From contig NZ_RRCO01000003.1 of assembly GCF_003862475.1 (NCBI RefSeq), forward strand, positions 248,001-312,000: a DNA stretch of 64,000 nt, read 5' to 3'. The translations under genes and the position numbers were made by a program. The DNA comes from Lachnoanaerobaculum gingivalis (GTDB taxonomy: Bacteria; Bacillota; Clostridia; Lachnospirales; Lachnospiraceae). Below, one piece after another: positions 25,092 to 55,852 of this stretch (its first letter is position 1; each line of letters opens with the position of its first letter). The notes under the pieces were generated by a model, which saw only the letters and a program-made list of their open reading frames with translations, made no database searches and was not told where the DNA came from.

Positions 25092-28000
25092 TTATTTTTT
25101 GTCTCTGTATGGAACTATATCATCAGCAACAATTCTCATTGTAGATTTTTGTTCGGGATAATTTACAACCTTGCTTCCGGTATTAGGCTCATATGTCATG
25201 TTAAATACCATATCTGACAGCCACTTCTTAAAAGAAGGATTGTCTTGGAATTGTTTAAAAAGTTCCATATTATCCGCCATTACTGAGAAAATAACCTGCT
25301 GTAATGCACGTTCACTTTCCATACGTGCATTCTGCTTATCAGAATTCTTTATTGCATTCTGGTACTTTTCATCTTTTGCAACCATATCCGGAATTGCAAT
25401 AATTTGTCTACGAACATTATCTGGTTCCTTCCAATCAATGTTTCCAAACATATCATTAAAATCATTAAGGATACTAGACAATAAGTCCATCTCAGGATTA
25501 ACAATATGACCTGCACTTCCCGCCGGTACAGGAGCGACCTCTGCATCCATATCCTCAAGCTTTATTGACATTGATTCCTGTGCTTCAAGTCGATAGCTAT
25601 CGAGGTCAATCAAGTCAAGGATTCCTTCTGAGAAATCATCATCTCTTGGTGATGGTAACTTCGGAATCATAAGATTAAGGAATATTGAAAGTTTCTCCCA
25701 ATCTGCATCACCATAAGGAAGAATAGCTCCTAAGAATCCGTATGTACGACAAAAAGCCTTTGCAGAACTCTTAAACTTAATCTGCTCTTCAGTATCAAGA
25801 TTTTTATAAACTGCAGTACAAGCATCAAGAATTGGGTCAAGCCTATCCCTTTCTGCTCCATTTAGATACAAGTCTACAAGCTGCTCCACATGAGCTGTTG
25901 AATATACCTGATACTCTTCCATTGTTGTAATAAGGTCATACAACTTGTTAGGGTCTGTTTCACCGGACAATAACGTAGTTCTATAATACCTTGAGAACGA
26001 CTGCTCAATCATTGCCGGTTTATTTGCAAAATCCAAAACAAAAGTATCATACTTCATTGGATGACATCTGTTCAATCTGGATAATGTCTGAACTGCCTTA
26101 ATGTCATAAAGCATCTTATCAACATACATCGTATGTAACAGAGGTTCGTCAAAACCTGTCTGGAACATATCTGCAACAACCAAAATACGATAAGGGTCTG
26201 TTTTTAATGTTTTAGGAATCTTCGCATCTGGGAATCCATTCATAGCCGCAGATGTTAATGGTGGTTCCTGTCCCTGATACTTGTGTTCACCAGAGAACGC
26301 GACAATCGCCTTATATGGGCTATGTCTAGCTGCAAGACACTTATTAAGTGCATAATAGTACTCTATACATCTTGGTATGCTTGAAGTAACTACCATCGCA
26401 CGAGCCTGTCTACCTATTTTCCCTTTTGAAATCACCTGTTCGTGGAAGTGCTCAATCATCATCTCTGCCTTCTGAGAGATGGTATATGAGTCACTTTCAA
26501 CGAATGCCCTAAGCTTTTTCTGTGCTCGTTTCTTGTCGAACATAGGGTCATCCTGTACAGTCTTCATAAGCTTATAGTAGCTGGCAATCGGTGTATAATA
26601 TTTAAGCACATCAAGAATGAAACCTTCCTGAATAGCCTGCTTCATAGTGTATGAATGGTATGGACGATGCTTTACTTCATCTCCATCCTGATATGGAACG
26701 CCGAAGGTTTCCAAAGTCTTATTCTTTGGTGTTGCAGTAAATGCAAAGTAGCTGGCATTGTTGAGTAACTTACGTCCCTCCATCATTGCATTGATTTTAT
26801 CTTCGTTATCCATTTCATCTTCAGAAGCAAGGCCGGAAAGAGCCAAGTTCATCTGCGCAGAGTTTCTTCCACTCTGACCAGAATGCGCCTCATCTATAAT
26901 AACTGCGAACTTATTTTCCTTATGTTTAGCTCCAATATCAGGAACTACATAGGGAAATTTTTCTATAGTGGTGATAATAATTCTCTTTCCATCTTTAATG
27001 GCATCTCTTAAATCACTGGAATGTTCTGCCCATGCAACCGTATTAGCTACCTGCATGAACTGTTTTATATTATCTCTAATCTGTTTATCAAGAATTCTTC
27101 GGTCGGTAACTACCAGCACAGAATCCAACATGGGATGACCATTTTCCTCAAGGCCAATCAGCTGATGTGCAAGCCGAGAAATTGAATTAGACTTCCCTGA
27201 ACCGGCACTGTGCTGAATCAAATATCTTTTTCCGATTCCATTTTCTTTCACATCAGCAAGTAAGCTTTCAACTACGTCCAACTGATGATAACGAGGGAAT
27301 ATCTGCTTTACACTTTTCCTTTTTGTTTCAGGATCTTCTTCAACAACTACCTGAGCATAATTCTCAATAATACGACTAAGCTTATCCTTGGTAAGAACTT
27401 CTTTCCAAAGATAATCTGTCATGAGCCCATTTGGATTAGGCGGATTTCCTGCACCATCGTTGTATCCTTTATCAAAAGGAAGGAACCAACTGCTCTTACC
27501 ATCAAGCTTTGTACAGAATTTTACCCTTGCATCATCCACAGCAAAATGAACCATGCAACGCTTAAACTGGAATAGCAGCTCTCTAGGATCACGGTCAGTC
27601 TTATACTGGTTTACCGCATCATCAACATCCTGCTTTGTAAACTGATTCTTCAACTCAAAAGTAATTACAGGAAGACCATTGATAAATACACACATGTCAA
27701 GCGCAAGCCTAGTAGAATCATTTGAATATATCAGCTGACGTGTAACACTAAAGATGTTCTTTTCGTACATCTCCTTTGCCTTAACATTATTCTCAGTCGG
27801 TGTAAGATAAAACATGATAAGGCTGGCAGGATATACCTTAACTCCATTACGTAGAACGTCAATAATACCTCTCTTAACTATTTCACTCTGCAGTCGGTTA
27901 AGAAATTGATTCTTCTTTATCTCTGACTTAAAAACCCCAAGCTTATCTAAAGAATCCGGCTGTGTGTCCTGAAGAAAACGGAATAAGTGAGTTTCGTCAA

Positions 28001-28115
28001 TTGCATAATCACGATTGTAGTCTGCGTTGACACCTTGCTCATAGCCATTTTGCTCAATGAGCCACTTTACAATTAATGACTCAAGTCCACTTTCTTTTAT
28101 ATTAGTAAACGACAT
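25092..28115 (-). CDS. hsdR: type I restriction endonuclease, R subunit
   Basis: 1,007 residues, normal for HsdR. The N-terminal nuclease domain has the PD-(D/E)xK strand VITFELKNQ preceded by a conserved Asp (ALDMCVFINGLPV), near residues 130-155. The helicase motor has Walker A SAGSGKSNS (about 305), the DEAH box VIIDEAHSG (about 407), TATPKNKT, and the second RecA domain with MFQTGFDEPLLHTMYVDK and QTLSRLNRCHP. HsdR joins HsdM and HsdS to cut unmethylated DNA after ATP-driven translocation. It starts three bases after the hsdS stop, with GGAGGTGT overlapping that stop. Confidence 0.96.
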   Translation of the reverse strand: MSFTNIKESGLESLIVKWLIEQNGYEQGVNADYNRDYAIDETHLFRFLQDTQPDSLDKLGVFKSEIKKNQFLNRLQSEIVKRGIIDVLRNGVKVYPASLIMFYLTPTENNVKAKEMYEKNIFSVTRQLIYSNDSTRLALDMCVFINGLPVITFELKNQFTKQDVDDAVNQYKTDRDPRELLFQFKRCMVHFAVDDARVKFCTKLDGKSSWFLPFDKGYNDGAGNPPNPNGLMTDYLWKEVLTKDKLSRIIENYAQVVVEEDPETKRKSVKQIFPRYHQLDVVESLLADVKENGIGKRYLIQHSAGSGKSNSISRLAHQLIGLEENGHPMLDSVLVVTDRRILDKQIRDNIKQFMQVANTVAWAEHSSDLRDAIKDGKRIIITTIEKFPYVVPDIGAKHKENKFAVIIDEAHSGQSGRNSAQMNLALSGLASEDEMDNEDKINAMMEGRKLLNNASYFAFTATPKNKTLETFGVPYQDGDEVKHRPYHSYTMKQAIQEGFILDVLKYYTPIASYYKLMKTVQDDPMFDKKRAQKKLRAFVESDSYTISQKAEMMIEHFHEQVISKGKIGRQARAMVVTSSIPRCIEYYYALNKCLAARHSPYKAIVAFSGEHKYQGQEPPLTSAAMNGFPDAKIPKTLKTDPYRILVVADMFQTGFDEPLLHTMYVDKMLYDIKAVQTLSRLNRCHPMKYDTFVLDFANKPAMIEQSFSRYYRTTLLSGETDPNKLYDLITTMEEYQVYSTAHVEQLVDLYLNGAERDRLDPILDACTAVYKNLDTEEQIKFKSSAKAFCRTYGFLGAILPYGDADWEKLSIFLNLMIPKLPSPRDDDFSEGILDLIDLDSYRLEAQESMSIKLEDMDAEVAPVPAGSAGHIVNPEMDLLSSILNDFNDMFGNIDWKEPDNVRRQIIAIPDMVAKDEKYQNAIKNSDKQNARMESERALQQVIFSVMADNMELFKQFQDNPSFKKWLSDMVFNMTYEPNTGSKVVNYPEQKSTMRIVADDIVPYRDKK

Positions 28116-28118
28116 ATC

Positions 28119-29471
28119 CTACACCTCCTCGTCGAAAGATTTCTCATCTTCGGCATCCGCTTCATCATCATCAACTTCTTCTGTTTCTTCAATATACTCA
28201 AATTCAGGAATTTCGATATCCCTTACATCAATCTGCCCTGTCACAACATCAGAAATCAGTTTATTTCGTAATTCATGAAGGACTTCTACTTCTTCTGTTA
28301 GCTTTTTGATTGTTATGTCATATTTTGCAAATGTAGCAGGAATATATTCAACGATAGCCTGTTGCTCATCAGCTGGAGGAACAATAAATGGAATCTCCTT
28401 CATTTTATTAATTGATAGATCCCACTGTCCTACACGTATTCCATCAGAAGCCTGAGAAAAAAAATTCACATAGACTTTACTTCTGATTGCATAATGAAAA
28501 TATTCCAGATTTTCAAAGTCCACATCAAAGATAAAGTATGCTGGACTTACTATACCTGTATATTCTGAAATACCATAAGAACCCTGCCACGCTTTCATCT
28601 TATTCATAGCAAACTGACCCTTTTTCACCATTTTGTAACCGCTAAGGTCATCTGGAATAAAATTATGATTGCTTTCCTTATCCTCAATATCTCTAATGAT
28701 TACCCCCTGCTCTCTAACTACAGAAAGCAGCGGAAGCTCTGGATGGTTTTTCTCACTAAAAGGATGAAGAATCTGTCTCAATTTTATAGTTGTCCAATGT
28801 ACCGGAATATTTCCAAGCCATTCAACGCCGCTGAATTTCATTGGTACATTAGGATTAAGACCATGTGTCACCGCCTCATTTACAACAGTTTTCTTGAGCT
28901 CGCATATTCTTCGAAGTTCTTTCTTCTTGACTTCAATCAATCTATTTATTTTTGATACTTTCCAATCAAGATAACGAACAATCTTGTCTTGCTCCTGCCC
29001 TGACGGGATAGGTAACAGAATATTTTTCATCTCGCTGAAGCGAGTTGTCCATAAATCTGAAACAATTCCCCGGCCATATCGGTAATACTCTTCCGAAAAA
29101 ATATGACTTCTCATCAAATAATGAATATATCTGCCATTCCATTCTTGTCTTGGCTCAAGAACAATATTAATTAGAGAGACAGAACCATCCAAAGGTGATA
29201 TACCACAGGAGCCTTTCCTATCAGACCTACTATTGATAACAAAGTCTCCAGTTTTTACAAGTTTTCTGTTATCACCTGCATCAGTTTTAACTGCACTATC
29301 TAATTGCGGTACAATTCCACCTTTTGATACCGAAAGAGGGGCATAGTCTTTATCTGACACCTTCTCTTTTCGTTGTGAAAATAGACTGCCTATCTTTTTA
29401 CATTCCCATTCAGATGGTAAATTTCCCAACCATGTAGTACCTGAAGGAGAATAGCTACTATATCTCTTCAT
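28119..29471 (-). CDS. hsdS: type I restriction-modification specificity subunit
   Basis: 450 residues with the classic two target-recognition domains: TRD1 from about 12 (LPSEWECKKIGSLF), central helix about 160-195 (KIVRYLDWKVSKINRLIE), TRD2 from about 215 (GNIPVHWTTIKLRQIL), distal helix about 385-420 ending KLISDVVTGQIDVRDI. The last 25 residues form an unusually acidic tail (EEVDDDEADAEDEKSFDEEV). The start overlaps the hsdM stop by one base (TAATG). TRDs define the bipartite recognition sequence, which cannot be read from the protein by eye. Confidence 0.95.
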   Translation of the reverse strand: MKRYSSYSPSGTTWLGNLPSEWECKKIGSLFSQRKEKVSDKDYAPLSVSKGGIVPQLDSAVKTDAGDNRKLVKTGDFVINSRSDRKGSCGISPLDGSVSLINIVLEPRQEWNGRYIHYLMRSHIFSEEYYRYGRGIVSDLWTTRFSEMKNILLPIPSGQEQDKIVRYLDWKVSKINRLIEVKKKELRRICELKKTVVNEAVTHGLNPNVPMKFSGVEWLGNIPVHWTTIKLRQILHPFSEKNHPELPLLSVVREQGVIIRDIEDKESNHNFIPDDLSGYKMVKKGQFAMNKMKAWQGSYGISEYTGIVSPAYFIFDVDFENLEYFHYAIRSKVYVNFFSQASDGIRVGQWDLSINKMKEIPFIVPPADEQQAIVEYIPATFAKYDITIKKLTEEVEVLHELRNKLISDVVTGQIDVRDIEIPEFEYIEETEEVDDDEADAEDEKSFDEEV

Positions 29472-31486
29472 TACTTTAGTCCTCCAAGAACATCCTTAAG
29501 CATCCCGTTAGTTTCTTGTTCAAGTCGTTCCAGGTCAAAAATAATGCTTTCCATAGGACGAAGTTCTGATACCTTATAAAAATATTTTGTGAAGCTTATT
29601 TCATAGCCTATCTGAGTCTTCTTTTCATCTACATATGCATCGGGGGCATAGGGATGAACTTCATTTTCAATAAAAGCTTGAACACCTCCATCATACGTAA
29701 AAGGAACAATCTCTGTATCACGCAGCTCAACATCAGCCTCGCCTTCAATTGGCAATGCATTAGAGTCCCTATCAGTAATATACGGACGTACCTTTTTCAA
29801 GAGCGAAATTTTCAACTTTGTAGCCTTCTCAAAAGCCTTCCAATCATCTAACGTCACAGTAGGTTCCAGTTCATTAATAGCCTCAGCAAAAGCTGCCATT
29901 TCTACATCTTTCAGCACACCTGATGGTATCTTGCGCTCCGGATAGACGCGCAAACGAAGAGGACGTTCAACTGTAACAGCCCAATGTCCAAAATCATCGT
30001 TATTAAAAATCTTGCTAATCTCACTCTGCTCCATCTCAAGAAAAATCCTTATGATTTCGTTACGAATTTCAGTCGTGAATTCGCAGTTCTTTTTGCCCAT
30101 ATTCTTTCGTAAAGGTGATTTCATTGAAGTTGCATCAATTAACTGTATCTTGCCTTTACGTCTATCTTCCTTTTTATTTGATAACACCCAGATATAAGTT
30201 CCTATACCAGTGTTGTAGAACATATTCTCAGGTAAAGCAATAATAGCTTCTACAAGGTCGTTCTCAATCAGATATCTACGAGCATTACTCTCACCACTAC
30301 CGGCATCTCCAGTAAAGATGGAAGATCCATTATGCACCTCTGCAATTCTGCTTCCAAGTGAAGTGTCATTTTTCATCTTCGCAACATTATTCAGAAGGAA
30401 CAGGAGCTGTCCATCACTGGTTCTTGGAATCATCGAAAGCTGTGTTCCATCATCAAGATAAGTGTTAAATCTACTATCAAGGATATCCTTTTTACCACCC
30501 ATCTTCTCAGCATCAGTTTTCCAGCTCTTACCGTATGGAGGATTTGCAAGCATGAAATCAAACTGTCTGCTAGCATTACCATCCGCAGAAAGTGTAGAAC
30601 CATATGCTATATGTTCAGCTTGTTCACCATCACCCTTTAACAGCATGTCGGCTTTACAAATCGCGTATGTTTCTGGTTGAAGTTCCTGTCCAAAAAGATG
30701 AATAGATACATTTTTTCCACGTCTCTTTGCAAGAGTCAAAAGTCTATCTTGCGCAACGGTAAGCATTCCACCTGTACCACACGCACCATCATAGCAAGAA
30801 TAAGTTGCATCCATAAGTTTGTCAGCAATAGGCATAACAACTAAATCTGCCATAAGATCTACAACATCACGTGGTGTCCAGTGTTCTCCGGCTTCCTCGT
30901 TATTATCTTCATTAAACTTACGAATCAATTCCTCAAATACAGTTCCCATACCATGATTATCCAGAGCTGGAAGCTTTATTGTTTTCATAGTATCATCTGT
31001 ATACACAGGCTTAAGACTAAGGTTTATGGTTGGAGAAATAAACTTTTCAATAACTGCACCTAGAATATCCGCATCAATCATCGTATCAATCTGATTACGA
31101 AATTTGAACTTCTCCAAAATTTCCTGAACATTAGGTGAAAAACCATCTAAGTATGCTTCAAAGTCAACTTTAAGAGTCTGTTTCTTTGCTCTACTGGTAA
31201 GGTCTTTTAATAAAAATTGTGAAGAGTTGCAGAAAGCCTGTCCTGCTGCATTACAAAGAGCTGGCCACTGATTAGTAATACCTGCTGCATCCATCTTTTC
31301 CTTCATTTCAAGAACTGCCGGTTTTGTATCCTCTAACATAGCATCAAGACGACGAATAACTGTCATTGGGAGAATAACGTCACGATACTTACCGCGAACA
31401 TATACGTCACGCAGACAGTCATCAGCAATACCCCATATAAAACTCACAATCGCATTGTGTACTTGATTGTCCATATTTTCATCCAT
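29471..31486 (-). CDS. hsdM: type I restriction-modification DNA methyltransferase subunit
   Basis: 671 residues, longer than the roughly 500 of classic HsdM owing to an extended C-terminal part. An N-terminal helical HsdM_N domain (FIWGIADDCLRDVYVRGKYR) precedes the N6-adenine methyltransferase fold. AdoMet motif I is DGACGTGGML (about 234) and the catalytic motif IV is ANPPYGKS (about 313). EHWTPRDVVDLM, typical of the family, lies before motif I. It is first in the hsdMSR operon, preceded by a small helix-turn-helix gene. Methylation by M2S protects host DNA. Confidence 0.96.
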   Translation of the reverse strand: MDENMDNQVHNAIVSFIWGIADDCLRDVYVRGKYRDVILPMTVIRRLDAMLEDTKPAVLEMKEKMDAAGITNQWPALCNAAGQAFCNSSQFLLKDLTSRAKKQTLKVDFEAYLDGFSPNVQEILEKFKFRNQIDTMIDADILGAVIEKFISPTINLSLKPVYTDDTMKTIKLPALDNHGMGTVFEELIRKFNEDNNEEAGEHWTPRDVVDLMADLVVMPIADKLMDATYSCYDGACGTGGMLTVAQDRLLTLAKRRGKNVSIHLFGQELQPETYAICKADMLLKGDGEQAEHIAYGSTLSADGNASRQFDFMLANPPYGKSWKTDAEKMGGKKDILDSRFNTYLDDGTQLSMIPRTSDGQLLFLLNNVAKMKNDTSLGSRIAEVHNGSSIFTGDAGSGESNARRYLIENDLVEAIIALPENMFYNTGIGTYIWVLSNKKEDRRKGKIQLIDATSMKSPLRKNMGKKNCEFTTEIRNEIIRIFLEMEQSEISKIFNNDDFGHWAVTVERPLRLRVYPERKIPSGVLKDVEMAAFAEAINELEPTVTLDDWKAFEKATKLKISLLKKVRPYITDRDSNALPIEGEADVELRDTEIVPFTYDGGVQAFIENEVHPYAPDAYVDEKKTQIGYEISFTKYFYKVSELRPMESIIFDLERLEQETNGMLKDVLGGLK

Positions 31487-33581: not shown

Positions 33582-33944
33582 CTAACTCTTATAATTTGAT
33601 ATGTTTTTCAACATCTCCTCTGACACAAAATATGGATTATTATCTTCTCCAATTTTCTCAATCAAAATGGCATCCTTATCTATTTCAAGTACTCTAATTT
33701 TTTCTCCTATCTTAAATTTTAATCCATCATTGCTAACCCCCTCTGCAGTTACAGAATATACCATTGAATCTGATGTTCTGTGTAATTCTTCCTTATTTAT
33801 TTTCTTTATTATCTTTTTTACAACAATCTCACCACCTTTATATATCACTGCACCTGTGCCAGCAATTATTAAGACAAAATTTTTAGGACCTCCGACCTTC
33901 TTCGCCACAGTAGTCAACCATTGATATGCACCTAAATTACTCAT
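33582..33944 (-). CDS. small membrane-anchored hypothetical protein
   Basis: 120 residues. One membrane helix (about 22-40, NFVLIIAGTGAVIYKGGEIV) is followed by a Lys-rich stretch (KKIIKKINKEE) and a C-terminal beta-rich part of about 60 residues (VTAEGVSNDGLKFKIGEKIR, VLEIDKDAILIEKIGE) that looks like a small SH3/OB barrel. The AAGGAGGTGA before the ATG is a near-perfect ribosome binding site, suggesting strong translation. It lies between the RM remnants and the Qat operon. Not recognised. Confidence 0.65.
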   Translation of the reverse strand: MSNLGAYQWLTTVAKKVGGPKNFVLIIAGTGAVIYKGGEIVVKKIIKKINKEELHRTSDSMVYSVTAEGVSNDGLKFKIGEKIRVLEIDKDAILIEKIGEDNNPYFVSEEMLKNISNYKS

Positions 33945-34134: not shown

Positions 34135-34374
34135 TTATTTAATTAGCATTTCATCTTTCATGTCTTGTAACAGATATATTGCATTATTATTTTCATATAT
34201 TAGTCTAAGCATTAATTGAATATCAGGATTATCAGCACTCAATACATTACGCTTACAAACCTCTTTATGTAATACATGTTCTTCAATCAACAAATATATA
34301 TCCATATTTTTTGTCATTCCACGCACAGAGATCATTTGTACTAAATCACTACAATTCCATTCCTTAGTTGTCAT
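34135..34374 (-). CDS. small hypothetical protein downstream of qatD
   Basis: 79 residues, acidic, helical (DIQLMLRLIYENNNAIYLLQ near the end), no membrane segment. It is 171 bases after qatD on the same strand, with a weak ribosome binding site. Not recognised; could be a separate small ORF rather than part of Qat. Confidence 0.5.
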   Translation of the reverse strand: MTTKEWNCSDLVQMISVRGMTKNMDIYLLIEEHVLHKEVCKRNVLSADNPDIQLMLRLIYENNNAIYLLQDMKDEMLIK

Positions 34375-34545: not shown

Positions 34546-35289
34546 TTAAATGCTATCCTTGGTTTTGACAATTTCTTCAAAATTTGCCTTTACTCGATGC
34601 TCCACCTGCTTCTTTGTCACATTATACATATTAGAAAAATACTCATAGATAATATCATTAAAGTCAATAGAATACTGACTTTTTAGTGACGGAATAAATG
34701 GAGCATCACTTTCTAGTAATATACGTTGTACCGGTATCTTGGAAATTATATTAGCTCCAGACTTACTGTTCAACATTTGTGGATTAATTGAAAAGTAGTA
34801 TCCTCTATCGATAGCTTCCTCAAGATCTTGTATTCTTCCTGAGTACCAATGCATAATAACAGTTCCCGCAAATCCATCTAAATGTTTTAAAACATCTTTA
34901 GAAGCATGTCTACTATGTACGCTTAACACTTTATTTTTCCCTGTTAGGAATTCTAGTATTTCGCTAAATATTCTTTCTTGATCAAGACATATACGTTTAT
35001 CATTGGTTGAACCATCCAGCCCAACTTCACCAATATACCGTGACTTTACTGATAATTTCTTAAATAATTCAATCTGATTTGGAAAGTCTTTTACTAATTC
35101 CGGATGATAACCAATTGCAATTTGAGTGTATTTATATCTACCAACTAATTTCTCGTATCTATTATAAATATCAGGTAGATTTGTCATTGCAATTGTATAT
35201 GATTTCACAGCTTCAATATAGTGTAAAACTTCTATTTTATCCTTATAGAGATCAAAATGCATATGTGCATCCATTAAAAACTCATTCAT
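34546..35289 (-). CDS. qatD: QatD, TatD-like DNase of the Qat anti-phage system
   Basis: 247 residues of the TatD amidohydrolase family. Metal-binding positions are all visible: DAHMHFD (His9, His11), GEVGLDG (Glu near 93), SVHSRHA (His near 125), MHWYSG (His near 152) and LESDAPF (Asp near 196). The ATG overlaps the qatC stop (ATGA). In Qat systems QatD is the presumed nuclease and is required with QatA-C for defence in published work on QatABCD. Confidence 0.93.
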   Translation of the reverse strand: MNEFLMDAHMHFDLYKDKIEVLHYIEAVKSYTIAMTNLPDIYNRYEKLVGRYKYTQIAIGYHPELVKDFPNQIELFKKLSVKSRYIGEVGLDGSTNDKRICLDQERIFSEILEFLTGKNKVLSVHSRHASKDVLKHLDGFAGTVIMHWYSGRIQDLEEAIDRGYYFSINPQMLNSKSGANIISKIPVQRILLESDAPFIPSLKSQYSIDFNDIIYEYFSNMYNVTKKQVEHRVKANFEEIVKTKDSI

Positions 35290-36575
35290 TTAAACTCCTC
35301 TAAATAGCTGGAAATCTCATTAATCCCACGTTTATAAAGATTAGAAAACTCTTCTATATGTTCTTTAATGGATCCATTCATCTGAATACGCATAAAAATT
35401 TGGGTAGGCTGAAACATATCCAAACCTTGTAAATATGAATTTAAGCACATTTTTGCTTCATCGCCTAATTTAAATTGTCTGTCATAATACCTACTTGTAT
35501 CTGACATATTAGCTCTTTTTAAGGCAGCTTGTCTCACAGTGCATGGCAAGCAGTAGCCACAATGCATAGCTTCTTTCTCGCCACGATGACGACCTACATC
35601 TGGATGAGAACATGACATCGTATTTGCAATATTCGCATTTAATATCTCTTGATTTTTACATTCAATTAACATCTCTCCCTTGGTCTTAAATTGATATGGA
35701 TTATAAATATTCAGAGTTATTCCTACGTTGTTCAGTAATTCCTTAAGTAAAGTCATATAATATGGGTGTGTAGTTCTCGTACTACTTGTACCTATTCTAG
35801 AGAATGTAAGAGGAATATTTAGGGAAATAAATCCATTTTCTGAAATAATCATTTTACTGCAGTTGCTATATGCCGTAGCCATTACAATAGCATGTGAAAA
35901 AAACATAAATGATCTTGTTCGTGTTGTATCTTCTACACCATCAACAACCGATGCATGAAATTGTAAAAAATTATCTTCCAATAACTCATATTCGGTTTGC
36001 AATGAGTAAATTACCCTATCTTGGAATTCTTTTGTACCTTTTCCACCTCCATAATGGCTAATAAATAATATATCCTTTTTTCCTGCTTCCAATAGATCTA
36101 TAGCACCTATCAAGGAATCCATTCCTCCAGATAACATTGATACCATTGAAAACATCTGCGTTTTTTCACTACGCGTTTTTTTCTTCCATCGGTTTTCAGC
36201 AAATACTTCTATATCTGATTTTTCTCTTGGACGAAAAAAAATCTTCCAATGATCTCCGCTCAGAAAACTCAAGGTGTTCTGCAAGAGTAATACATTTTCA
36301 TTCCATAAAGTGTATTCTAAAACAGGAATATGTAATTCAATATTTCTACTCCAATTATCTGATGCATCTTCTCTTTTACATAACCTATCCGCTATAAAAA
36401 CAGAAAATGAAATGTATAATAAATCTATTCCTGTATTGGAAAACCAAGAAGAGCAGATAAAATCATGTTGCCAAAAAGTATATCGAAATTGTTTTGCTGC
36501 ATTATAACTAATTCTTAGGTTCTCACACTCTGCAATATATATATCCTTATCACTATGAACAAAATTAATAATCAC
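35286..36575 (-). CDS. qatC: QatC, QueC-like protein of the Qat system
   Basis: 429 residues. The PP-loop ATP-pyrophosphatase motif SGGMDS is at 149-154, and the QueC-like zinc site is at HCGYCLPCTVRQAALKR near 340. An N-terminal extension of about 140 residues precedes the QueC core and distinguishes it from biosynthetic QueC (about 220 residues). The GTG at 36575 overlaps the qatB stop (GTGA) and has GGAGGG six bases upstream, so it is preferred to an ATG 27 bases earlier. By analogy with QueC it may modify a base or a protein terminus; the exact target is not shown here. Confidence 0.93.
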   Translation of the reverse strand: MIINFVHSDKDIYIAECENLRISYNAAKQFRYTFWQHDFICSSWFSNTGIDLLYISFSVFIADRLCKREDASDNWSRNIELHIPVLEYTLWNENVLLLQNTLSFLSGDHWKIFFRPREKSDIEVFAENRWKKKTRSEKTQMFSMVSMLSGGMDSLIGAIDLLEAGKKDILFISHYGGGKGTKEFQDRVIYSLQTEYELLEDNFLQFHASVVDGVEDTTRTRSFMFFSHAIVMATAYSNCSKMIISENGFISLNIPLTFSRIGTSSTRTTHPYYMTLLKELLNNVGITLNIYNPYQFKTKGEMLIECKNQEILNANIANTMSCSHPDVGRHRGEKEAMHCGYCLPCTVRQAALKRANMSDTSRYYDRQFKLGDEAKMCLNSYLQGLDMFQPTQIFMRIQMNGSIKEHIEEFSNLYKRGINEISSYLEEFK

Positions 36576-37354
36576 TCTAATCCCTCCAATGCAATAAAAC
36601 AATCCCCCATGATTTTAGGAATTACATTTTTTGAGCTAAAGTCTATTTGTTCCTTGAGCTTTTTAAACTCTACATCAACTGTACTGTAAACTATTTCCTT
36701 AAAATCATTTCTAATTGTATTGGCCTTAACAATATCAGATTCGTACTTTTCAAATCTACTTTGTAAGTCCCTCTGCATAAGCCCCCATATATATGATTGT
36801 ATATACGCACACATTGATTTTACGGATAATTCCGAAGGCATATTATTTAAACAATCAAAATCCATATTATTTCGCTCCATATATTCATAAACAAAGGACA
36901 TCGCATCCATCATTGCTGATCGAGCTACTATATCCTCCTTTGTTACTGCTTGAGGTGCTAGTGCATCAACCACTAATGAAATTACTTCATTCGCACTTTT
37001 ATCCTCAAACTCAATTTGTAAATTGTGTAATAAGTTTTCGATTCCATAATTACTTATATTGTTAAAGAATCCACCCAATGCTCGACCCGATCTCACACCT
37101 GAATTCGCCGAATGAACCAATCTTGTAGAGCCACCAGCCGCCTTTACATACTGTCCAACTACATGCCCATAGTTTCTTTTTCGATCTCCACTATAGGTAC
37201 CATTTATAATTCTTGACAAATTTGTTTTTACTGTCTTCCACTCTACATTGGGCTGTACAGAACCACCTGACTCTATCTCTTGATCATTTAAATATCCATC
37301 CGGTAGTAAAGGATTATTCTTTACCGGTCCTTGATAAATTGTCGATGTTCCCAT
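36572..37354 (-). CDS. qatB: QatB, Qat system component
   Basis: 260 residues, soluble, mostly helical, with Gly/Ser-rich segments in the N-terminal third (GTYSGDRKRNYGHVVGQYVK, GRALGGFFNNISNYGI). No known enzyme motif. It is assigned by its position between the KAP ATPase and the QueC-like protein and by resemblance to QatB family proteins. Its ATG follows the qatA stop directly, with no gap. Confidence 0.9.
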   Translation of the reverse strand: MGTSTIYQGPVKNNPLLPDGYLNDQEIESGGSVQPNVEWKTVKTNLSRIINGTYSGDRKRNYGHVVGQYVKAAGGSTRLVHSANSGVRSGRALGGFFNNISNYGIENLLHNLQIEFEDKSANEVISLVVDALAPQAVTKEDIVARSAMMDAMSFVYEYMERNNMDFDCLNNMPSELSVKSMCAYIQSYIWGLMQRDLQSRFEKYESDIVKANTIRNDFKEIVYSTVDVEFKKLKEQIDFSSKNVIPKIMGDCFIALEGLE

Positions 37355-39160
37355 TTACCCTTCCTTCCCCAAGCTATTTCTTATTGTTCTAACCAAGGTA
37401 ATATTATCTTTCCACTGGTTAGACATTATCTTTTCTAATTCTTCTTCCATATGAGTTTGTTTAGCAAATTCAGCTATATATGGAGCAGCACCAGCTGTTA
37501 ACTGTGATGCTGAGATTAATTTCAACTGGCTCATCCCCTCCTCATACAACTCTTTTTTAGTTAACGAAAGCCCAGTAAGAATCTTCACTTGTTCTATTTT
37601 CACTTTTTCAGAAGAAACTATTCTATTTACAAACGCTTCTATAACAGCCTTCCCATCATCAATAGACAGATTCCTCATTTCTTCTTCTGCCTTAGTTATA
37701 GACTCTTCTCCTTCAGAAATAACAATGTCAAAAACTCTTTGAGCTAATACCGACATTGTTGCTTTCAATATACTTACACGCTCCTCTAAAGAAGTTCTAG
37801 AAAAATAAAAATATAATCTCAAATCCTCATTTGCTATATGTGGCTCTGTTTTATACCACCTCAAAAGCCATTCATCCTCTATTCCTTCTTGCGTATCCCC
37901 TTCGTTTTCCTCTCCTTCTTTCAACATTTCTTTCAGATCACCTGTTTTTGATAATTCTGCATATTTTTTAAACTGAATAGGTCGATAGTATTCTAGCATC
38001 ATTATTTTTGTCAGAATCTTTTGGTTCAGTTCTTTTCCTTTATATTTGGCCTGCTGAATTCTTAAATCAAGCATGTTTAAAAAACGTTTATATTGTCTTG
38101 GATTACCATTTAGTGCTTGGGTCATTAACTCTGCCAGTTGTATAGCTGATACAATACTTTCTGATTCGTTCAAATTCAGATTTGCTAAAATCTTATTTAA
38201 ATCAACATTCGTAAAGTCATCTTTTTGTGCTGTGTGAAATGCCTCCAAGAATTTCCTAAAGTCATCTTTTCCTATTTTTTTTTGAAGAAACAAGCATGAA
38301 ATGTACCTTGATACTTCTAATGTGTCCAAACGTGGAATTCTGATCGGGTACTGAATCAATTTTTCCATATATTCCTTTCCTATACTTATTTCTTGGCCAG
38401 GTATATCTTTAAACTTACTCTTTACTGCATATTCAATCTGTCTCTCATCTGCTCCTATTACAAATGCTGTTTTTCCTGTGAATAGGAAAAGCTTAATTGC
38501 CTCCAATGTATCTAATATTGTATCAGGACGACACCTGTCTAGTTCATCAACAAATACAACAAGACGTGAAATCTTTGATTCCTCTAGGATATTAGCAAAG
38601 TTCTTTTGAAAAGAACGAATATTCTCTCTAAGCTCTGTGAAATTTAGTTCATCCTTAACATTCTGCTGAATTTTATTTAGTATATCATCGTCTATATTAT
38701 TTACATTATTAAAAACAGCAGACATGACATTTCTTACGGTTAAACTGGTCAATGTTGCCATTCCTCCGGTAAGCATAAAGTCCGCCCCAGCCCCAACTAC
38801 CCTTTTTGCTAATTTAAGTTTATCTATAGAATCCCACAATCCTTTAACTAAACTTTTGGCTCTTTCTGACAATTTTCTTTCATCTGTTATTGCGTCTAAT
38901 ATCTCTCCCAGTAATGCACTCTTAGCGTCTTCATAGTTTTCAAAAAGCCAACCATTAAAAACCATGCATTTTATATCTTTGTCATTGTTTTCAAGCAAAG
39001 ACTTACTCATATGTATAACGCTTGATTTTCCACTCCCCCAATCACCATACAATCCTATACATGCTGGTAGAAGATCATCATTTTCCACAATATCAGTAAT
39101 ACTATTTATTAAATATCCATAATCCAAAAAATCCAACTCGGTCTCGCTGTCTCTCCACAT
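37355..39160 (-). CDS. qatA: QatA, KAP-family P-loop ATPase of the Qat system
   Basis: 601 residues. Walker A is GDWGSGKSS at about 39-47; Walker B is VVFVDELDRCRPD at about 200; a hydrophobic stretch near 120-150 (inserted between the motifs) is typical of KAP NTPases. The C-terminal 200 residues are helical. KAP ATPases are predicted membrane-associated, and in Qat QatA is the first gene of four. The ATG has AAAGGGG seven bases upstream and a candidate promoter at 39178-39206. Confidence 0.94.
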   Translation of the reverse strand: MWRDSETELDFLDYGYLINSITDIVENDDLLPACIGLYGDWGSGKSSVIHMSKSLLENNDKDIKCMVFNGWLFENYEDAKSALLGEILDAITDERKLSERAKSLVKGLWDSIDKLKLAKRVVGAGADFMLTGGMATLTSLTVRNVMSAVFNNVNNIDDDILNKIQQNVKDELNFTELRENIRSFQKNFANILEESKISRLVVFVDELDRCRPDTILDTLEAIKLFLFTGKTAFVIGADERQIEYAVKSKFKDIPGQEISIGKEYMEKLIQYPIRIPRLDTLEVSRYISCLFLQKKIGKDDFRKFLEAFHTAQKDDFTNVDLNKILANLNLNESESIVSAIQLAELMTQALNGNPRQYKRFLNMLDLRIQQAKYKGKELNQKILTKIMMLEYYRPIQFKKYAELSKTGDLKEMLKEGEENEGDTQEGIEDEWLLRWYKTEPHIANEDLRLYFYFSRTSLEERVSILKATMSVLAQRVFDIVISEGEESITKAEEEMRNLSIDDGKAVIEAFVNRIVSSEKVKIEQVKILTGLSLTKKELYEEGMSQLKLISASQLTAGAAPYIAEFAKQTHMEEELEKIMSNQWKDNITLVRTIRNSLGKEG

Positions 39161-39659: not shown

Positions 39660-41051
39660 TTATTTTCTCTCCATCACCACCACACTCTCCGTATGATAGC
39701 TCCTCGCAAACTGATCCACCACTGTCAGTTTCTTAAGTTCATATTCCTTCTCACATAGCAATTTTAAATCCCTTGCCAGTGTAGAGGAATCACAGCTTAC
39801 ATATACTATTCTCTTTGGTAACAACTTCAGCATTGTATCTATTGCAAGCTTATCAAGCCCCTTTCTTGGCGGGTCTACCACTATGACATCTATATCTCTT
39901 ATATTTCCGTTTTCGTATTCGCCTGTGATAATCTCTTCCGCCTTACCTACGAAAAACTTTACATTTTCTATATTATTAAGCTTTGCGTTCTCTCTTGCAT
40001 TTTGTATGGCGGCATCCACTATCTCAACACCGTAGACAAACTTTGCGGACTTTGCAAGGAAGAGTGAAATCGTTCCTATACCGCAGTACATATCCCAAAC
40101 TGTTTCTTTACCGGTCAGTGCGGCATACTCTAATGCCTTGCTATATAGTTTTTTCGTCTGTACAGGATTTACCTGATAAAATGACTGTGGCGATATTCTA
40201 AACTTCACATCCCCTATGTAATCCTCTATATAGCCGTTGCCATAAAGAGTAACTGTTTTTTCTCCCAAGATGACATTGGTATTCTTTTTATTTATATTGA
40301 TAGAAACAGATTTTAAGTCATTTCCAAGTGCGCTACATAGGCTCTCTACAAGATTGTCACTATGTGGCAGATTGTTTGCGTTTATAACTATGCAAACCAT
40401 CAGCTCACCCGTAGCAAAGCCTTTTCTTATAAGTACATGCCTTACTATGCCGCTTCCATCTTCCTCATTGTAGGCTTCCACACTGTACTTCTCCATAAAA
40501 TCAAGAACTATCTGCAGTACAGTCTTATTTTCTTCTATACCGATAATGCAGTCATCAAACTCTACAATGCTGTGAGTTCTGCCTGCAAAATAGCCTGTGA
40601 TGTTTTTACCGTTCTTTCTCCCGAAGGGAAATTGGGATTTATTTCTATACCTTATCGGCTCTTCCATACCGATAATTTCTTCTATCTCTACATTTGACAG
40701 ATCAAATCCACCTATTCTTTTTAGATGATTTTCCACTTTGTTTTGCTTTAGTCTAAGCTCCGCTTTATAATCAAGGCTCTGTAATGTACATCCGCCACAG
40801 CTTCTTGCCACCGGACATTTGACCTCTATTCTGTCGGGACTCTCATTAACTATGCTCTCCAATCTTGCATATCCGTAACTTTTCTTCGTTTTCATCACCT
40901 TTGCTGTGACTTTATCCCCTATAACAGTATCTTTTATAAACCATGTGAAGGCATCGGTTTTTCCGATGCCTTCGCCATTTTCTCCAAAGTCTGTTATATC
41001 AACTGTTATCATTTCACCTTTTTTGTAACTTGCTGTATTATCAGTTTTCAT
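39660..41051 (-). CDS. rlmD: 23S rRNA (uracil-5-)-methyltransferase, RumA/RlmD family
   Basis: 463 residues. An N-terminal TRAM domain (about 10-65, VDITDFGENGEGIGKTDAF) precedes the iron-sulfur cysteines CPVARSCGGCTLQ (about 79-91). The AdoMet motif is WDMYCGIGTISLFLA (about 318) and the catalytic segment VYVSCDSSTLARDL (about 420). Enzymes of this group make m5U in 23S rRNA (U1939 or U747 in E. coli) or, as TrmFO-independent relatives, in tRNA; several paralogues are common in Clostridia, so the exact position is uncertain. Confidence 0.9.
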   Translation of the reverse strand: MKTDNTASYKKGEMITVDITDFGENGEGIGKTDAFTWFIKDTVIGDKVTAKVMKTKKSYGYARLESIVNESPDRIEVKCPVARSCGGCTLQSLDYKAELRLKQNKVENHLKRIGGFDLSNVEIEEIIGMEEPIRYRNKSQFPFGRKNGKNITGYFAGRTHSIVEFDDCIIGIEENKTVLQIVLDFMEKYSVEAYNEEDGSGIVRHVLIRKGFATGELMVCIVINANNLPHSDNLVESLCSALGNDLKSVSININKKNTNVILGEKTVTLYGNGYIEDYIGDVKFRISPQSFYQVNPVQTKKLYSKALEYAALTGKETVWDMYCGIGTISLFLAKSAKFVYGVEIVDAAIQNARENAKLNNIENVKFFVGKAEEIITGEYENGNIRDIDVIVVDPPRKGLDKLAIDTMLKLLPKRIVYVSCDSSTLARDLKLLCEKEYELKKLTVVDQFARSYHTESVVVMERK

Positions 41052-48715: not shown

Positions 48716-49906
48716 TCAATCTATAGCAATATTTCCCGATAGCGCCTGCATATATGCATTGTAATCTGTCTTAAGTTGAAGCCTTGCACTCTCCAATTCC
48801 GCCTGCTTTTGTAAAACCGAAAGCTTTCCTCCAAGATACTGTGCCGTTGAGAGCATGCCAAGTCTTCTCTGTGTATCCAGTGCATTTTCGGTGGCGTTGG
48901 CTGCTTCTACTCCGACATTTGCCGCTGCAAGATTACCTTTATCTGTTATTATATTATTATAAAGTTCATTTATATTTGCTCTTAACATATCTTCATCCTG
49001 ATTTGACTGATACAACTTTGCTTCCACAAATGAACTTGACTTTGAAGATGTATTATGTCTGTTTTTTATAAGTGTTGCATTGTTTCCTATGGCAGTGTTT
49101 ATATCCACACTTGGGTTTAACTTATTTATATCGTCCTCACTTACATCAGGTATATCTGCAACAGTAACGACGGCATCAGGAGACCAACCGCACATAGTTA
49201 TAAGAGTACGATAAAGCTTATCCTTATTAGCCTTTAGGTTCAAAAGATTTGCTCTTGCATTTGCCAGGTCACTTTGAGCCTTTATAATATCCGCATTGGT
49301 CGCCAATCCCAGACTTTCTGTCTGATTTGTGACTCTTATCGCCTCCTCGTACATCTTTATCATACTTTCCAGTATCTTTTCCTGATTTTCTATATTTTTA
49401 TATCCAATCATAAGTGCTCTTACACCTGCCACAACCTGATCCTGTGCATTTCTTATAGGCGCATTTGTACTTGTCACCTGTCTTGACAGCTTATCTTTTG
49501 CAATGCTCATTGCCTGTATACTCATACCAAGGCCCTTGCCCTGTGCCTTATAGAGAATTGTATTTACAACATCACCGTCGTTCATAGCTACAGTCGCATT
49601 ACTGCTCATCTCTCTTCTTGCCGCTTTGAGTGTATCAAGTGCCATACTTAAGCTGTCTACATTTTCATTAAACTTACTCCAAGCTGATGATATATTTACA
49701 TTGAAGTTTTTTACCAAATCTTCTATTTCTACATACTCCAAAGTATTATCCATAAGCTTACTCCATGTCTCTTCACTGTATCCGTTAAGTTGTGCCTGTG
49801 TCTTTTCTACATCTGACGGACTCTTTGGAGACGTCACATATGCATATGATGTTATAGGTGTGGCAAGTGCCATACAAAGAGACAAAGCTATTATTTTATT
49901 TTTCAT
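48716..49906 (-). CDS. TolC-family protein A
   Basis: 396 residues with a signal peptide (about 1-23, MKNKIIALSLCMALATPITS) and long alpha-helical stretches typical of TolC/OEP domains: AIRVTNQTESLGLATNADII and ARANLLNLKANKDKLYRTLI (about 195-245), and at the C-terminus ESARLQLKTDYNAYMQAL. Only 12 bases after its neighbour, with a strong AAGGAGG. In diderms TolC spans the outer membrane; in a monoderm, if the organism is one, its place is unclear. Last gene of the efflux operon. Confidence 0.88.
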   Translation of the reverse strand: MKNKIIALSLCMALATPITSYAYVTSPKSPSDVEKTQAQLNGYSEETWSKLMDNTLEYVEIEDLVKNFNVNISSAWSKFNENVDSLSMALDTLKAARREMSSNATVAMNDGDVVNTILYKAQGKGLGMSIQAMSIAKDKLSRQVTSTNAPIRNAQDQVVAGVRALMIGYKNIENQEKILESMIKMYEEAIRVTNQTESLGLATNADIIKAQSDLANARANLLNLKANKDKLYRTLITMCGWSPDAVVTVADIPDVSEDDINKLNPSVDINTAIGNNATLIKNRHNTSSKSSSFVEAKLYQSNQDEDMLRANINELYNNIITDKGNLAAANVGVEAANATENALDTQRRLGMLSTAQYLGGKLSVLQKQAELESARLQLKTDYNAYMQALSGNIAID

Positions 49907-51277: not shown

Positions 51278-54200
51278 TCAGTCAATATCCAATCCCGCTT
51301 CTAAATGATTTCCTGTAAGCTTTTTACCTGCCTTATCAAGCATTTTATAAAGAGTAGGCAAAAGCAGCAGTGCAAGAAGCGTTGAAGCTATCAAACCTCC
51401 TACATTTACAAGTGCAAGTCCCTGGAGCATATCCGTTCCATAACCAAGAGCCATCGGAAGCATAGATATAATTGTTGTAAGGGTGGTCAAAAGTATAGGT
51501 CTTATTCTTGTCGCTCCCGCCTCCACAAGGGCATCATCAAGAGGCATCTCCACCTTATACTGATTTACCGTATCCACATATAAAATACCGTTATTTACAA
51601 CGGTACCCACCATCATCAAAAAACCTATCATTGACATCATGCTTATCGGTACATCAAATAACCACAGGAGTCCGAATGCTCCTATCAATGAAAACGGTAT
51701 GGTAAACATTACCATCAGTGAAAATCTGGGTGATTCAAACTGCATTGCCATTACAATAAATATTAAAAATATAGCTGTAAGTAATGCATTAAGCAGTGCG
51801 GTCATCTCATCACTCATCATATCATTATATGCATTGGTGGCTCTTTCCACTCCGTTTGGAAGTCCGATACTGTCTACGAATGCATCAGCCTCACTATTGG
51901 CATCTCCCTTATATCCTGCCACCTTATCCGCTGTGATGGATACCTGATATTTTTTATCCGATCTTGTAATAGTAACCGCACTGTCCTCAAATGACACTGT
52001 GGCAAGATCTGAAAGCGGAGTTTTAGTTCCTGTAACACCTGTTATCAAAATATTTTCTATTTCATTGATGGTGTCATAGCTTTCATCGGGATAATTCATT
52101 TTTACGGTAATTGTAGAATCTCCTGAGGAATATTTCATTACCTCCGTATCTGTAAGATTTTGATATACTATACCTGCAACACTTCCAGGAGTCATTCCTA
52201 TAGCCTCAGCCTGTACAGGATCCACATTTATCTTAACTATAGGAGCCGCATTTTCTGCACTTGAATGTACATTTAATAAATAATTTAATGAATGCATTTT
52301 ATCTACTATTTCATTTGCGGTCTTTCTTACCAGATTATAATCGGTACTTTGAAGATTGATTTGCACTGCACGGTTTGATACTCCGCTTGAACTGTTTGAC
52401 TGATTCTTTACGGATATAGAAGTATCAGGAATTTTTGTCAGCACAGGCTGCCACTCCTGTATTACATTTTTGGTTTTTCTGCTGCGTTTCTTTTTCAAAT
52501 ATGCAGTTATTGAAATACCGGTTTTTTCTGAAAACATTTCAGAATTTCCAAAGGTCATCTGATAATTTTCCACATCCGGATCCGCCGCCACAAAATCTTC
52601 TATCTGCTTTGCAATTCTGTCCACATCCTCGATATTAAGCCCCGGAGCCACTGAAACACTTATTGCTATCTGTCCGTCATCCGATTCCGGCATCAGCACC
52701 ATTCCGACATTTCCGGCAAGTATAAAGGATATTACAAGAAGCATTACCGATATTCCGACTACAGTGAATTTTTTCGGTGTTATCTTTTTTACCGTATTTC
52801 TATAGCTATCCTGTACTTTTAAAAGCACTCTGTTTGCCAATGTATCCGTCTTTTCCACAGGATGAAAAAAGAGATATAGAAGCGGAACTATCATTATTGC
52901 GGAGAATAATGATGAAACCATACAAAATACTATGGTGTAACCAAGCTGTGCAAAGAGCTGTCCTGAAAGGCCTTTAAGCATTGCAAGCGGGAGGAATACT
53001 ACACAGGTGGTTATTATAGAACCTGTTATTGAATTTATCACAATACCTGTACCTTCCACGGCGGAATCAAAAAAGTTTTTATCGCTTTTTGATCTGAAGC
53101 AGCTTTCAAGTACGACTATGGACGCATCCACAATCATACCTATTCCAAGTACCAATGAGCCCATGGATATAAGATTTAGTGAAAAGCCTGCCGCACGCAT
53201 AAGTGTAAGAGCTACCATAACAGATATCGGTATTGAACTTCCGACTATCAGCGAAGCCTTGATATCTCCAAAAAATATAAACAGAACTATCATTGAGAGT
53301 ATTACCGCCATTATAAGTGTCTTAAATACATCACTAATTGATTCCTTGATATATTTTGAACTGTCAAATATCGTAGTAATGGTCAAATCCTTGTTATTTG
53401 CCTTCAGCTCCTCTATAACCTTGTTAACCTGCTTTGATACTTCAACTGAAGTGGATGACTGCTGCTTTGTAATAGCTACTGAAACCACCTCTTCACCATT
53501 ATAACGGCTCAGCGAGTTTTTCTCCTCCAAAGCATCATATACATTTGCCACATCCGATAAATGTATTACATCTCCTGTTTTTAGCGGTATTACAATATTT
53601 TTTAATCTGTTGATATCCTTATAGTCGGCACCTATACTTACACTTAGTGATTGCCTTCCATAGTCAACTTTGCCTACAGGTGTGGAAAAATCCGCACTGC
53701 TTATTATATTTCCGATATCCGACATAGCTAAATTATACTGTGCAAGCTTTTCGGGTATCAGCTCAATTCTTATATAACTTGACTGCCCTCCTGATATGGA
53801 AACACTTCCAACCGAAGACATTTTCTTAAATTCAGGAACAATGTTTGTATTCACATAATCCTGCAAATTGCCGTCCGTACCTCCGGCAACGCTCAGCTGT
53901 ATATCACTTTGAGCATTCATATCTATCTCTATAATATTCGGCTCCTCGGCATCCTTTGGCAGGCTTGATTTTACCGAATCCAATACCTTTTTGAGATTAA
54001 TATACGCCTTATCCATATTTGTTCCGAACTCATACTGTAAAAGCATGGTAGAGGCATTTTCCATGGAACTTACACTTACGGTTTTTATTCCCGTCAGTGT
54101 TGAAACCTCGGACTCTATTTTCTTTGATACAAGTTCATCTATATCTGCCGGAGATGCTCCCGGATATATAGTGGATACAACCATCATCGGCAAACTCATC

Positions 54201-54319
54201 TCGGGATTAAGCTCCATCGGTGCATTCATAACAGAGCGCAATCCGAAAAACAAAACCGTTATTACTGCAAGAATAAGAGTTACCGGTCTTTTTAATGAAA
54301 ACCTTGTTAATCCAATCAT
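51278..54319 (-). CDS. RND-family efflux transporter permease (AcrB/SwrC-like)
   Basis: 1,013 residues, full length. Twelve membrane helices in the AcrB layout, with the first at about 12-30 (RPVTLILAVITVLFFG) and two large extracytoplasmic loops, about 35-330 and 555-850. The proton-relay block LGIGMIVDASIVVLES (helix 4, two conserved Asp) near 400 is intact, as is GTVVNNGILYVDT in helix 10. RND pumps expel drugs, lipids or metals using the proton gradient. Nine bases after the adaptor gene and followed by two TolC genes, so a complete tripartite set is encoded. Confidence 0.95.
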   Translation of the reverse strand: MIGLTRFSLKRPVTLILAVITVLFFGLRSVMNAPMELNPEMSLPMMVVSTIYPGASPADIDELVSKKIESEVSTLTGIKTVSVSSMENASTMLLQYEFGTNMDKAYINLKKVLDSVKSSLPKDAEEPNIIEIDMNAQSDIQLSVAGGTDGNLQDYVNTNIVPEFKKMSSVGSVSISGGQSSYIRIELIPEKLAQYNLAMSDIGNIISSADFSTPVGKVDYGRQSLSVSIGADYKDINRLKNIVIPLKTGDVIHLSDVANVYDALEEKNSLSRYNGEEVVSVAITKQQSSTSVEVSKQVNKVIEELKANNKDLTITTIFDSSKYIKESISDVFKTLIMAVILSMIVLFIFFGDIKASLIVGSSIPISVMVALTLMRAAGFSLNLISMGSLVLGIGMIVDASIVVLESCFRSKSDKNFFDSAVEGTGIVINSITGSIITTCVVFLPLAMLKGLSGQLFAQLGYTIVFCMVSSLFSAIMIVPLLYLFFHPVEKTDTLANRVLLKVQDSYRNTVKKITPKKFTVVGISVMLLVISFILAGNVGMVLMPESDDGQIAISVSVAPGLNIEDVDRIAKQIEDFVAADPDVENYQMTFGNSEMFSEKTGISITAYLKKKRSRKTKNVIQEWQPVLTKIPDTSISVKNQSNSSSGVSNRAVQINLQSTDYNLVRKTANEIVDKMHSLNYLLNVHSSAENAAPIVKINVDPVQAEAIGMTPGSVAGIVYQNLTDTEVMKYSSGDSTITVKMNYPDESYDTINEIENILITGVTGTKTPLSDLATVSFEDSAVTITRSDKKYQVSITADKVAGYKGDANSEADAFVDSIGLPNGVERATNAYNDMMSDEMTALLNALLTAIFLIFIVMAMQFESPRFSLMVMFTIPFSLIGAFGLLWLFDVPISMMSMIGFLMMVGTVVNNGILYVDTVNQYKVEMPLDDALVEAGATRIRPILLTTLTTIISMLPMALGYGTDMLQGLALVNVGGLIASTLLALLLLPTLYKMLDKAGKKLTGNHLEAGLDID

Positions 54320-54327
54320 AAATCCTC

Positions 54328-55443: not shown

Positions 55444-55852
55444 ATATTTCTCCATTCTATATATTATTTATGATGCTTATCTGACAGAACTGTTAAAATA
55501 ATAAATTGTACATGTATTATACTACCTTTCAATTTGATATTTAATACTATATTATTTTTACTTTATTATATTTTTATGACTATATTTATGGAAATATAGC
55601 TAAACTCCAATTCTAAACAAAACATCAAATGATTCATGCTTTACTTTTTAATAATTTTATATATAAAAGCATACTGCATGACAATACTACATATGATTTA
55701 TAAAGATGATACCACATAGTACTTTATAATGCAAGGTACTATGTAGTATTTTTTCTTTTTGCAATTACAAAATTCCGGAACGAATTTTATACTGAATCTT
55801 TCTTTAGCAAATCTATATCCAAATTTTAAAAGAAAAAGTGACATACAAAATG
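55444..55852. other. promoter-containing gap upstream of the efflux operon
   Basis: About 400 bases with no gene. A TATAAT -10 (minus strand) is near 55518, with TTAAAT 17 bases upstream as a weak -35. An imperfect inverted repeat with ACATAGTAC (55714-55722) and GTACTATGT (55736-55744) lies upstream; T-runs follow on the + strand, so it may be a terminator or an operator of the ACTATGTAGT class used by PadR/GntR-type regulators. No regulator gene is adjacent. Confidence 0.5.

Follow-up and report, generated by a model that had tools for sequence, protein, structure and literature searches.

The 64,000-nucleotide stretch of Lachnoanaerobaculum gingivalis analysed here (contig NZ_RRCO01000003.1, positions 248,001 to 312,000; hereafter the window) carries an intact, complete copy of the qatABCD anti-phage operon, whose QueC-like enzyme QatC has been presented as a proposed deazaguanylating enzyme with 7-carboxy-7-deazaguanine (CDG) as substrate (PMC13329287, in the portions available to us). 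The system is already known, and in itself this operon is an ordinary, clean example; its host matters more, since it apparently cannot make CDG by the known route and so helps to narrow the mechanism of the system. The same holds for 22 of the 82 QatC-bearing genomes that we surveyed, counting the window's own. These hosts are scattered over the QatC tree and all keep the ATP motif, the threonine pair, the zinc cysteines and a QatB starting with GTS, which argues, rather than proves, that what QatC attaches is not CDG made by the host. These host data are difficult to reconcile with a general need for host-made CDG. We consider it likely that the window holds a complete anti-phage operon with a QatBC core, a phage range tuned by QatA and QatD, and an attached molecule that is not host-made CDG.

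An intact qatABCD operon

The first-pass annotation had described four minus-strand genes joined without gaps, and both the open reading frame (ORF) coordinates and the three junctions prove exact (Table 1). The qatA stop codon TAA (37357-37355) abuts the qatB ATG at 37354, qatB and qatC overlap by GTGA (36575-36572), and qatC and qatD overlap by ATGA (35289-35286); all four frames are open, and the order on the one strand (KAP ATPase, QatB, QueC-like QatC, TatD nuclease) is that of qatABCD. A longer qatC frame from a TTG start (35286-36602) is an alternative to the 429-residue version that starts with the GTG at 36575. Profile searches, which the annotation had proposed as its check, give each protein its own Qat model as best match in PADLOC (QatA, 6.2e-109; QatB, 2.7e-17; QatC, 2.6e-110, model matched 46-427; QatD, 3.1e-61). 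QatB, on whose recognition by QatB profiles the annotation had made its case depend, is thus recognised, and no Pfam family was found for it. Its MGTS start opens a disordered tail (the first ~35 residues are of low confidence) that leads into a helical domain; tail and fold are common to it and to the QatB of the Pseudomonas aeruginosa and Escherichia coli operons, at 16% identity across the structural alignment.

We rejected the possibility that the QueC-like gene encodes a queuosine enzyme, the grouping that the annotation had named as fatal to its reading: the protein scores 439.1 bits with the NCBIfam QatC model (cut-off 280) versus 14.8 bits with the QueC model TIGR00364 (cut-off 150.3). 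It matches Pfam QueC at 29.8 bits (cut-off 22) and QatC chains of the PDB at 5.8e-64 and 1.6e-63. The N-terminal extension, put at 140 residues by the annotation, is borne out, with the SGGMDS motif at residues 149-154 and the QueC profile aligning only from residue 145; the last zinc cysteine is residue 345 of 429, leaving ~80 residues beyond it, and to judge from the sequence the two extensions flank a QueC core. Canonical QueC shares the SGGxDS motif and the four zinc cysteines with the window QatC, which differs from it in the ~145 extra N-terminal residues and in a threonine pair that replaces the Tyr/Asp base-binding pair. Aligned with the PDB QatC chains, the window protein has S149, D153 and S154 where P. 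aeruginosa QatC has S156, D160 and S161, T266/T268 where it has T278/T280, and C322, C339, C342 and C345 in the places of its zinc ligands.

The known operons of P. aeruginosa and E. coli (QatBC, 9y01 and 9y02; further chains 9zee, 9zef, 9vlk and 9vll) have the same gene content and order as the window, and their QatC has the same ATP motif, threonine pair, zinc site and N-terminal extension, the window QatC being 30.6% identical to a P. aeruginosa plasmid copy. The account of these systems, in the portions available to us (PMC13279940), describes a 1:1 complex of QatB with QatC, protection against lambda vir by QatBC alone for both operons, and an effect of QatA and QatD on phage range. When the P. 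aeruginosa operon was placed in E. coli, defence needed SGGxDS, the threonine pair, both QatC extensions and Gly2 of QatB. The threonine pair stands where QueC and Cap9 have the CDG-binding Tyr/Asp; changing it to Tyr/Asp abolished defence, and crystals grown with CDG contained none. The same portions leave the reaction of QatC unsettled and name the molecule attached to QatB as a key open question. By analogy, QatB and QatC of the window would be the working core, QatC presumably coupling a molecule to QatB, and QatA, a DNA-binding ATPase, and QatD, a TatD nuclease, would widen or tune the phage range.

Cap9 of the type IV cyclic oligonucleotide-based anti-phage signalling system (CBASS) is, in the parts of its description that we could draw on, likewise of the QueC family and modifies its protein partner at the N-terminus; unlike QatC it keeps the Tyr/Asp pair for CDG, lacks the QatC extensions, and has a CD-NTase rather than QatB as its partner. 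The window QatC has Thr266 and Thr268 in place of the CDG-recognising pair, and a scan of the operon's four proteins, together with two small ORFs and the three hsd products, found no CD-NTase family, the adjacent partner being qatB. In passing, biosynthetic QueC was seen to score 80 bits with the PADLOC model PDLC00911 as well.

The host and the CDG pathway

CDG is made from GTP by way of QueD and then QueE. The window genome, listed as 99% complete, comprises 3,096,673 bases in 12 contigs. It shows no match to PF01242, the QueD family, and no QueC: apart from qatC, PF06508 matches a single protein, at 21 bits, which we rejected as QueC because it is MnmA (445 bits). We likewise rejected a 31-bit match to the QueE model TIGR03365, a pyruvate formate-lyase activase (317 bits); the best match to a second QueE model has 32 bits. 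With no detectable QueD, QueC or QueE, the host appears unable to make CDG by this route, in which it differs from the P. aeruginosa and E. coli systems. An assembly gap is unlikely, since the lineage commonly lacks the pathway: searched for QueC only, the host's family has it above cut-off in 31 of 150 genomes, and the one congener searched gave a weak match. tRNA-guanine transglycosylase is present (519.5 bits).

The wider survey took in five genomes from an earlier genome search and 77 of 80 loci, these being the best 80 of at least 172 confirmed relatives ranked by likeness to the window QatC; left out were L062, L089, L092, G201 (194 bits) and four matches below 20 bits. Three families (QueD PF01242, QueC and QueE) were searched because PF01242 alone misses some pathways: in a control Bacteroides the QueC and QueE models match and PF01242 does not. 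An E. coli control genome was matched for both QueD and QueC. The QueD family was not found in 19 of 54 and 12 of 28 surveyed genomes (31 in total), nine of which have QueC above cut-off. The other 22 are also without a credible QueE (14 of 54 and 8 of 28), with TIGR03365 matches that reach at most 39 bits and do not run from the model's N-terminus; seven of the stronger QueE matches, spread over seven of these genomes, proved to be pyruvate formate-lyase activase, NrdG2 or another radical-SAM protein and were rejected. We call these 22 hosts CDG-less below. The second QueE model, run on them and on ten other genomes, gave at most 48 bits in the CDG-less hosts, 304-343 bits in four positive controls (G179, G401, G441 and G447), 66-69 bits in two Bacteroidota ones, and 32 bits in each of G416 and G432.

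Judged by their assemblies, nine of the 22 are firm cases: G264, G315 and the window genome, all three 99% complete, and six of the 38 loci titled neither metagenome-assembled nor uncultured (Petrocella sp. FN5, Streptohalobacillus salinus, Peptoniphilus catoniae, Marinibacterium profundimaris, Ruminococcus bromii YE282 and Pseudorhodobacter aquimaris). Two loci with a QueD-family match and neither QueC nor QueE (L043 and L059) were left unlabelled. A different combination, QueD and QueE matched and QueC not, was seen at L022 (G395) and L027 (G400), whose hosts may make CDG without preQ0.

Conservation of QatC and QatB in CDG-less hosts

T266 and T268 are present in all 90 aligned QatCs, as are the four cysteines. 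SGG.DS is present in 89 of the 90. Part of the conservation of SGGxDS and TKGE comes from how the loci were chosen, since the scan for them relied on patterns of these two motifs (T266/T268 and MGTS were absent from the patterns). The one QatC without SGG.DS, L052 of Chryseobacterium sp. S0630, is a 283-residue frame that lacks this part, possibly a split or decayed gene. Among 24 positions inspected, 19 are invariant (SGG.DS, R219, R221, F225, E246, N247, S265, T266, T268, H270, K299 and the four cysteines): none of the 22 CDG-less hosts departs from them, nor does any other host whose frame extends over the position. At the five that vary (R267, T269, T298, G300 and E301) the window has the common residue.

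A QatB beginning with an ATG-, GTG- or TTG-started GTS was found at 71 of the 80 loci, including all 18 with CDG-less hosts, and also in the remaining four CDG-less genomes, giving 22 of 22. The nine exceptions are L052, L096, three loci whose qatC lies at the edge of a contig and four whose qatC frames are overlong. Outside the surveyed set, L008 (G201) encodes at 741-2616 a divergent QatC-like protein that falls below the cut-off at the score given above; the protein preceding it has MGSS near its start and no MGTS, and the pair is possibly an outlying relative of QatBC.

CDG-less hosts on the QatC tree

On a QatC tree of 85 rows, built by a quick method (22 CDG-less, 58 counted as CDG-capable and five unlabelled), the distribution of the CDG-less label requires 12 changes, of which starred branches force 11. 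The nine QueC-bearing hosts without a PF01242 match were counted as CDG-capable, and omitting them leaves the same 12 changes; with firm genomes only (nine CDG-less vs 32), four changes are needed. Near-identical QatCs in distant hosts (L020/L021, 98%; L055/L056, 100%) indicate that the operon moves between hosts. The first of these pairs, Petrocella (Vallitaleaceae) and Streptohalobacillus (Bacillaceae), is CDG-less on both sides and points to recent transfer. The operon of Vagococcus fluvialis plasmid p36B2_p1 (NZ_CP081462.1, L013) has the A-B-C-D order of the window and a QatC 42% identical to the window's; its carrier is a conjugative plasmid of 48.6 kb, where an IS1216 transposase lies near the operon, whereas the window operon lies in a 388-kb contig. 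In viral contigs, a search with peptide patterns taken from the window QatC, which detect close relatives only, found no relative of it.

What QatC may attach

A first alternative to our interpretation is that QatC deazaguanylates QatB with CDG as Cap9 does, CDG-less hosts obtaining CDG or an equivalent through salvage or from the infecting phage, or carrying idle copies. The QueC fold and N-terminal glycine tail held in common (PMC13279940, same portions) speak for it, as does the proposal already cited, and the published plaque assays used E. coli, which has QueD and QueC, so that CDG was available there. Against it stand the invariant threonine pair where the base-reading Tyr/Asp would be, the loss of defence on restoring Tyr/Asp, the crystals without CDG and the 22 CDG-less hosts; moreover, the salvaged precursors named in the portions available of PMC11130926 are preQ0, preQ1, queuine and Q, and CDG is not among them. 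We hold deazaguanylation with CDG to be a serious possibility, though a somewhat doubtful one. A word search of PMC13279940 did not find queE or queD; in PMC13329287, as far as available, queE appears for the CDG pathway and gene neighbourhoods, and no discussion of CDG-making by QatC hosts was seen there. Our literature search, to which most subscription journals were outside coverage, found no report of QatC hosts without the CDG pathway.

A second alternative is that the substrate differs by QatC clade, being CDG where the host makes CDG and another molecule in the Bacillota clades of the window. This would suit the clustering of CDG-less hosts on the tree, where an eight-row clade around the window (support 80) and a four-row Bacillota clade (support 93) are entirely CDG-less, and the replacement of G300 in the TKGE motif by arginine in only four of 90 QatCs (L071, L076, L078 and L081), which make up that four-row clade; G300R is possibly the mark of a clade with another substrate. 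It is opposed by the identity of 19 of the 24 inspected positions between CDG-less and other hosts, with the window in the common form at the other five, and by the occurrence of CDG-less hosts alongside CDG-makers whose QatCs are close to theirs; the QatC of L054, for instance, is 87-88% identical to those of L050 and L053. We regard a switch by clade as unlikely.

Several observations weigh against a substrate other than host-made CDG, or against a working copy in the window. First, the sample over-represents window-like hosts. Second, the CDG pathway was judged absent from profile searches, with seven of the stronger QueE matches individually identified, and these searches have gaps: TIGR03365 missed QueE in G408, which has QueD and QueC, found a partial one at a contig end in G414 and none in G605, and the second QueE model does not separate all lineages, G408 reaching only 42 bits with it, no better than the CDG-less hosts. 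Third, 13 of the 22 CDG-less genomes are metagenome-assembled, titled uncultured or (G248) 78% complete. Fourth, the CDG-less label is clustered, its 12 changes comparing with a mean of 19.4 in shuffles (0 of 500 as low), chiefly in Bacillota, and G300R, near the active site, is confined to CDG-less hosts. Fifth, three of the four operon proteins fall below NCBIfam equivalog cut-offs (QatA, 425.3 bits vs 600; QatB, 74.1 vs 100; QatD, 226.9 vs 230), which are naming thresholds rather than biological features, and yet in each case the Qat model is the best or only match.

These last scores, together with promoter-like sites around the operon that are no commoner than in shuffles and a terminator-like site that was not found there, are what one might expect of a remnant that has decayed or lost its function within a defence island. 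The open frames, the intact junctions and the common form of all 24 inspected QatC positions speak otherwise, and the nearest QatC in the tree is only 54% identical to the window's, so the frames have stayed open over a long divergence. We consider a remnant very improbable.

Having weighed these points, we still favour a QatC whose attached molecule is not CDG of the host's making. Instead of a different substrate, the host data may reflect salvage, supply by phages, a switch between clades or enzymes that escaped detection, and to the narrower proposal, that QatC does not deazaguanylate and puts a different, widely available small acid on the QatB glycine, we would give about an even chance.

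QatA, QatD and the neighbourhood

The motifs that the annotation had reported in the A, C and D proteins are present. QatA matches Pfam KAP_NTPase at 150.5 bits (cut-off 20), and no solved PDB chain with a sequence match to it was found; we take its GLYGDWGSGKSS to be the Walker A motif and VVFVDELDRC to be Walker B-like. QatD matches Pfam TatD_DNase at 130.9 bits and solved TatD-type chains from 1.9e-37. Its sequence contains DAHMH, GEVGLD, HSRHA, MHWYSG and ESDAPF, in which the HxH, E, H, H and D are presumably the metal ligands of TatD enzymes.

Table 1. Features of the window in and around the qat operon
Feature	Coordinates	Strand	Description
qatA	37355..39160	minus	KAP-family P-loop ATPase, 601 aa
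qatB	36572..37354	minus	QatC partner protein, 260 aa, starts MGTS
qatC	35286..36575	minus	QueC-like ATP-using enzyme, 429 aa from GTG start
qatD	34546..35289	minus	TatD-family metal-dependent nuclease, 247 aa
small ORF 1	34135-34374		downstream of qat
small ORF 2	33582-33944		downstream of qat; 120 aa, hydrophobic N-terminal segment
hsdM	29471-31486	minus	type I restriction-modification, profile matches
hsdS	28119-29471	minus	type I restriction-modification, profile matches
hsdR	25092-28115	minus	type I restriction-modification, profile matches
RNA uracil-methyltransferase-type gene	39660-41051		upstream of operon
transposase, AlbA_2 protein, Fic protein	15-24 kb of window		

The neighbourhood fits a defence island. 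The link to type I restriction-modification made in the first-pass annotation holds, with profile matches for all three hsd genes, which are a neighbour of the Qat system and outside it. The two small downstream genes that it had tied to the operon do exist and have no family in PADLOC, Pfam or NCBIfam, but their link to Qat is not supported: they have weak matches to PHROGs phage families (E 0.064 for small ORF 1 and 0.0072 for small ORF 2), and tblastn in the fetched qat loci found only the window's own copies, so we rejected them as shown Qat members. No relatives of small ORF 2 were found in viral contigs, where small ORF 1 was not searched. Elsewhere in the window, an AcrB-type RND pump (666 bits), an HlyD-type adaptor and a PF02321 outer-membrane-efflux-like protein lie together (48716-49906 and 51278-55455), an odd cluster if the host is single-membraned.

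Implications for Qat defence

Wherever a natural qat operon sits in a host without detectable QueD, QueC and QueE, the deazaguanylation model can be put to the test, and operons of the window's type are material for finding the real modification made by QatC. If QatC does put a different small acid on QatB, qatABCD would add to bacterial immunity a second kind of N-terminal protein conjugation, with a chemistry of its own and the QueC fold as its basis, and could operate even where the host makes no 7-deazaguanine.

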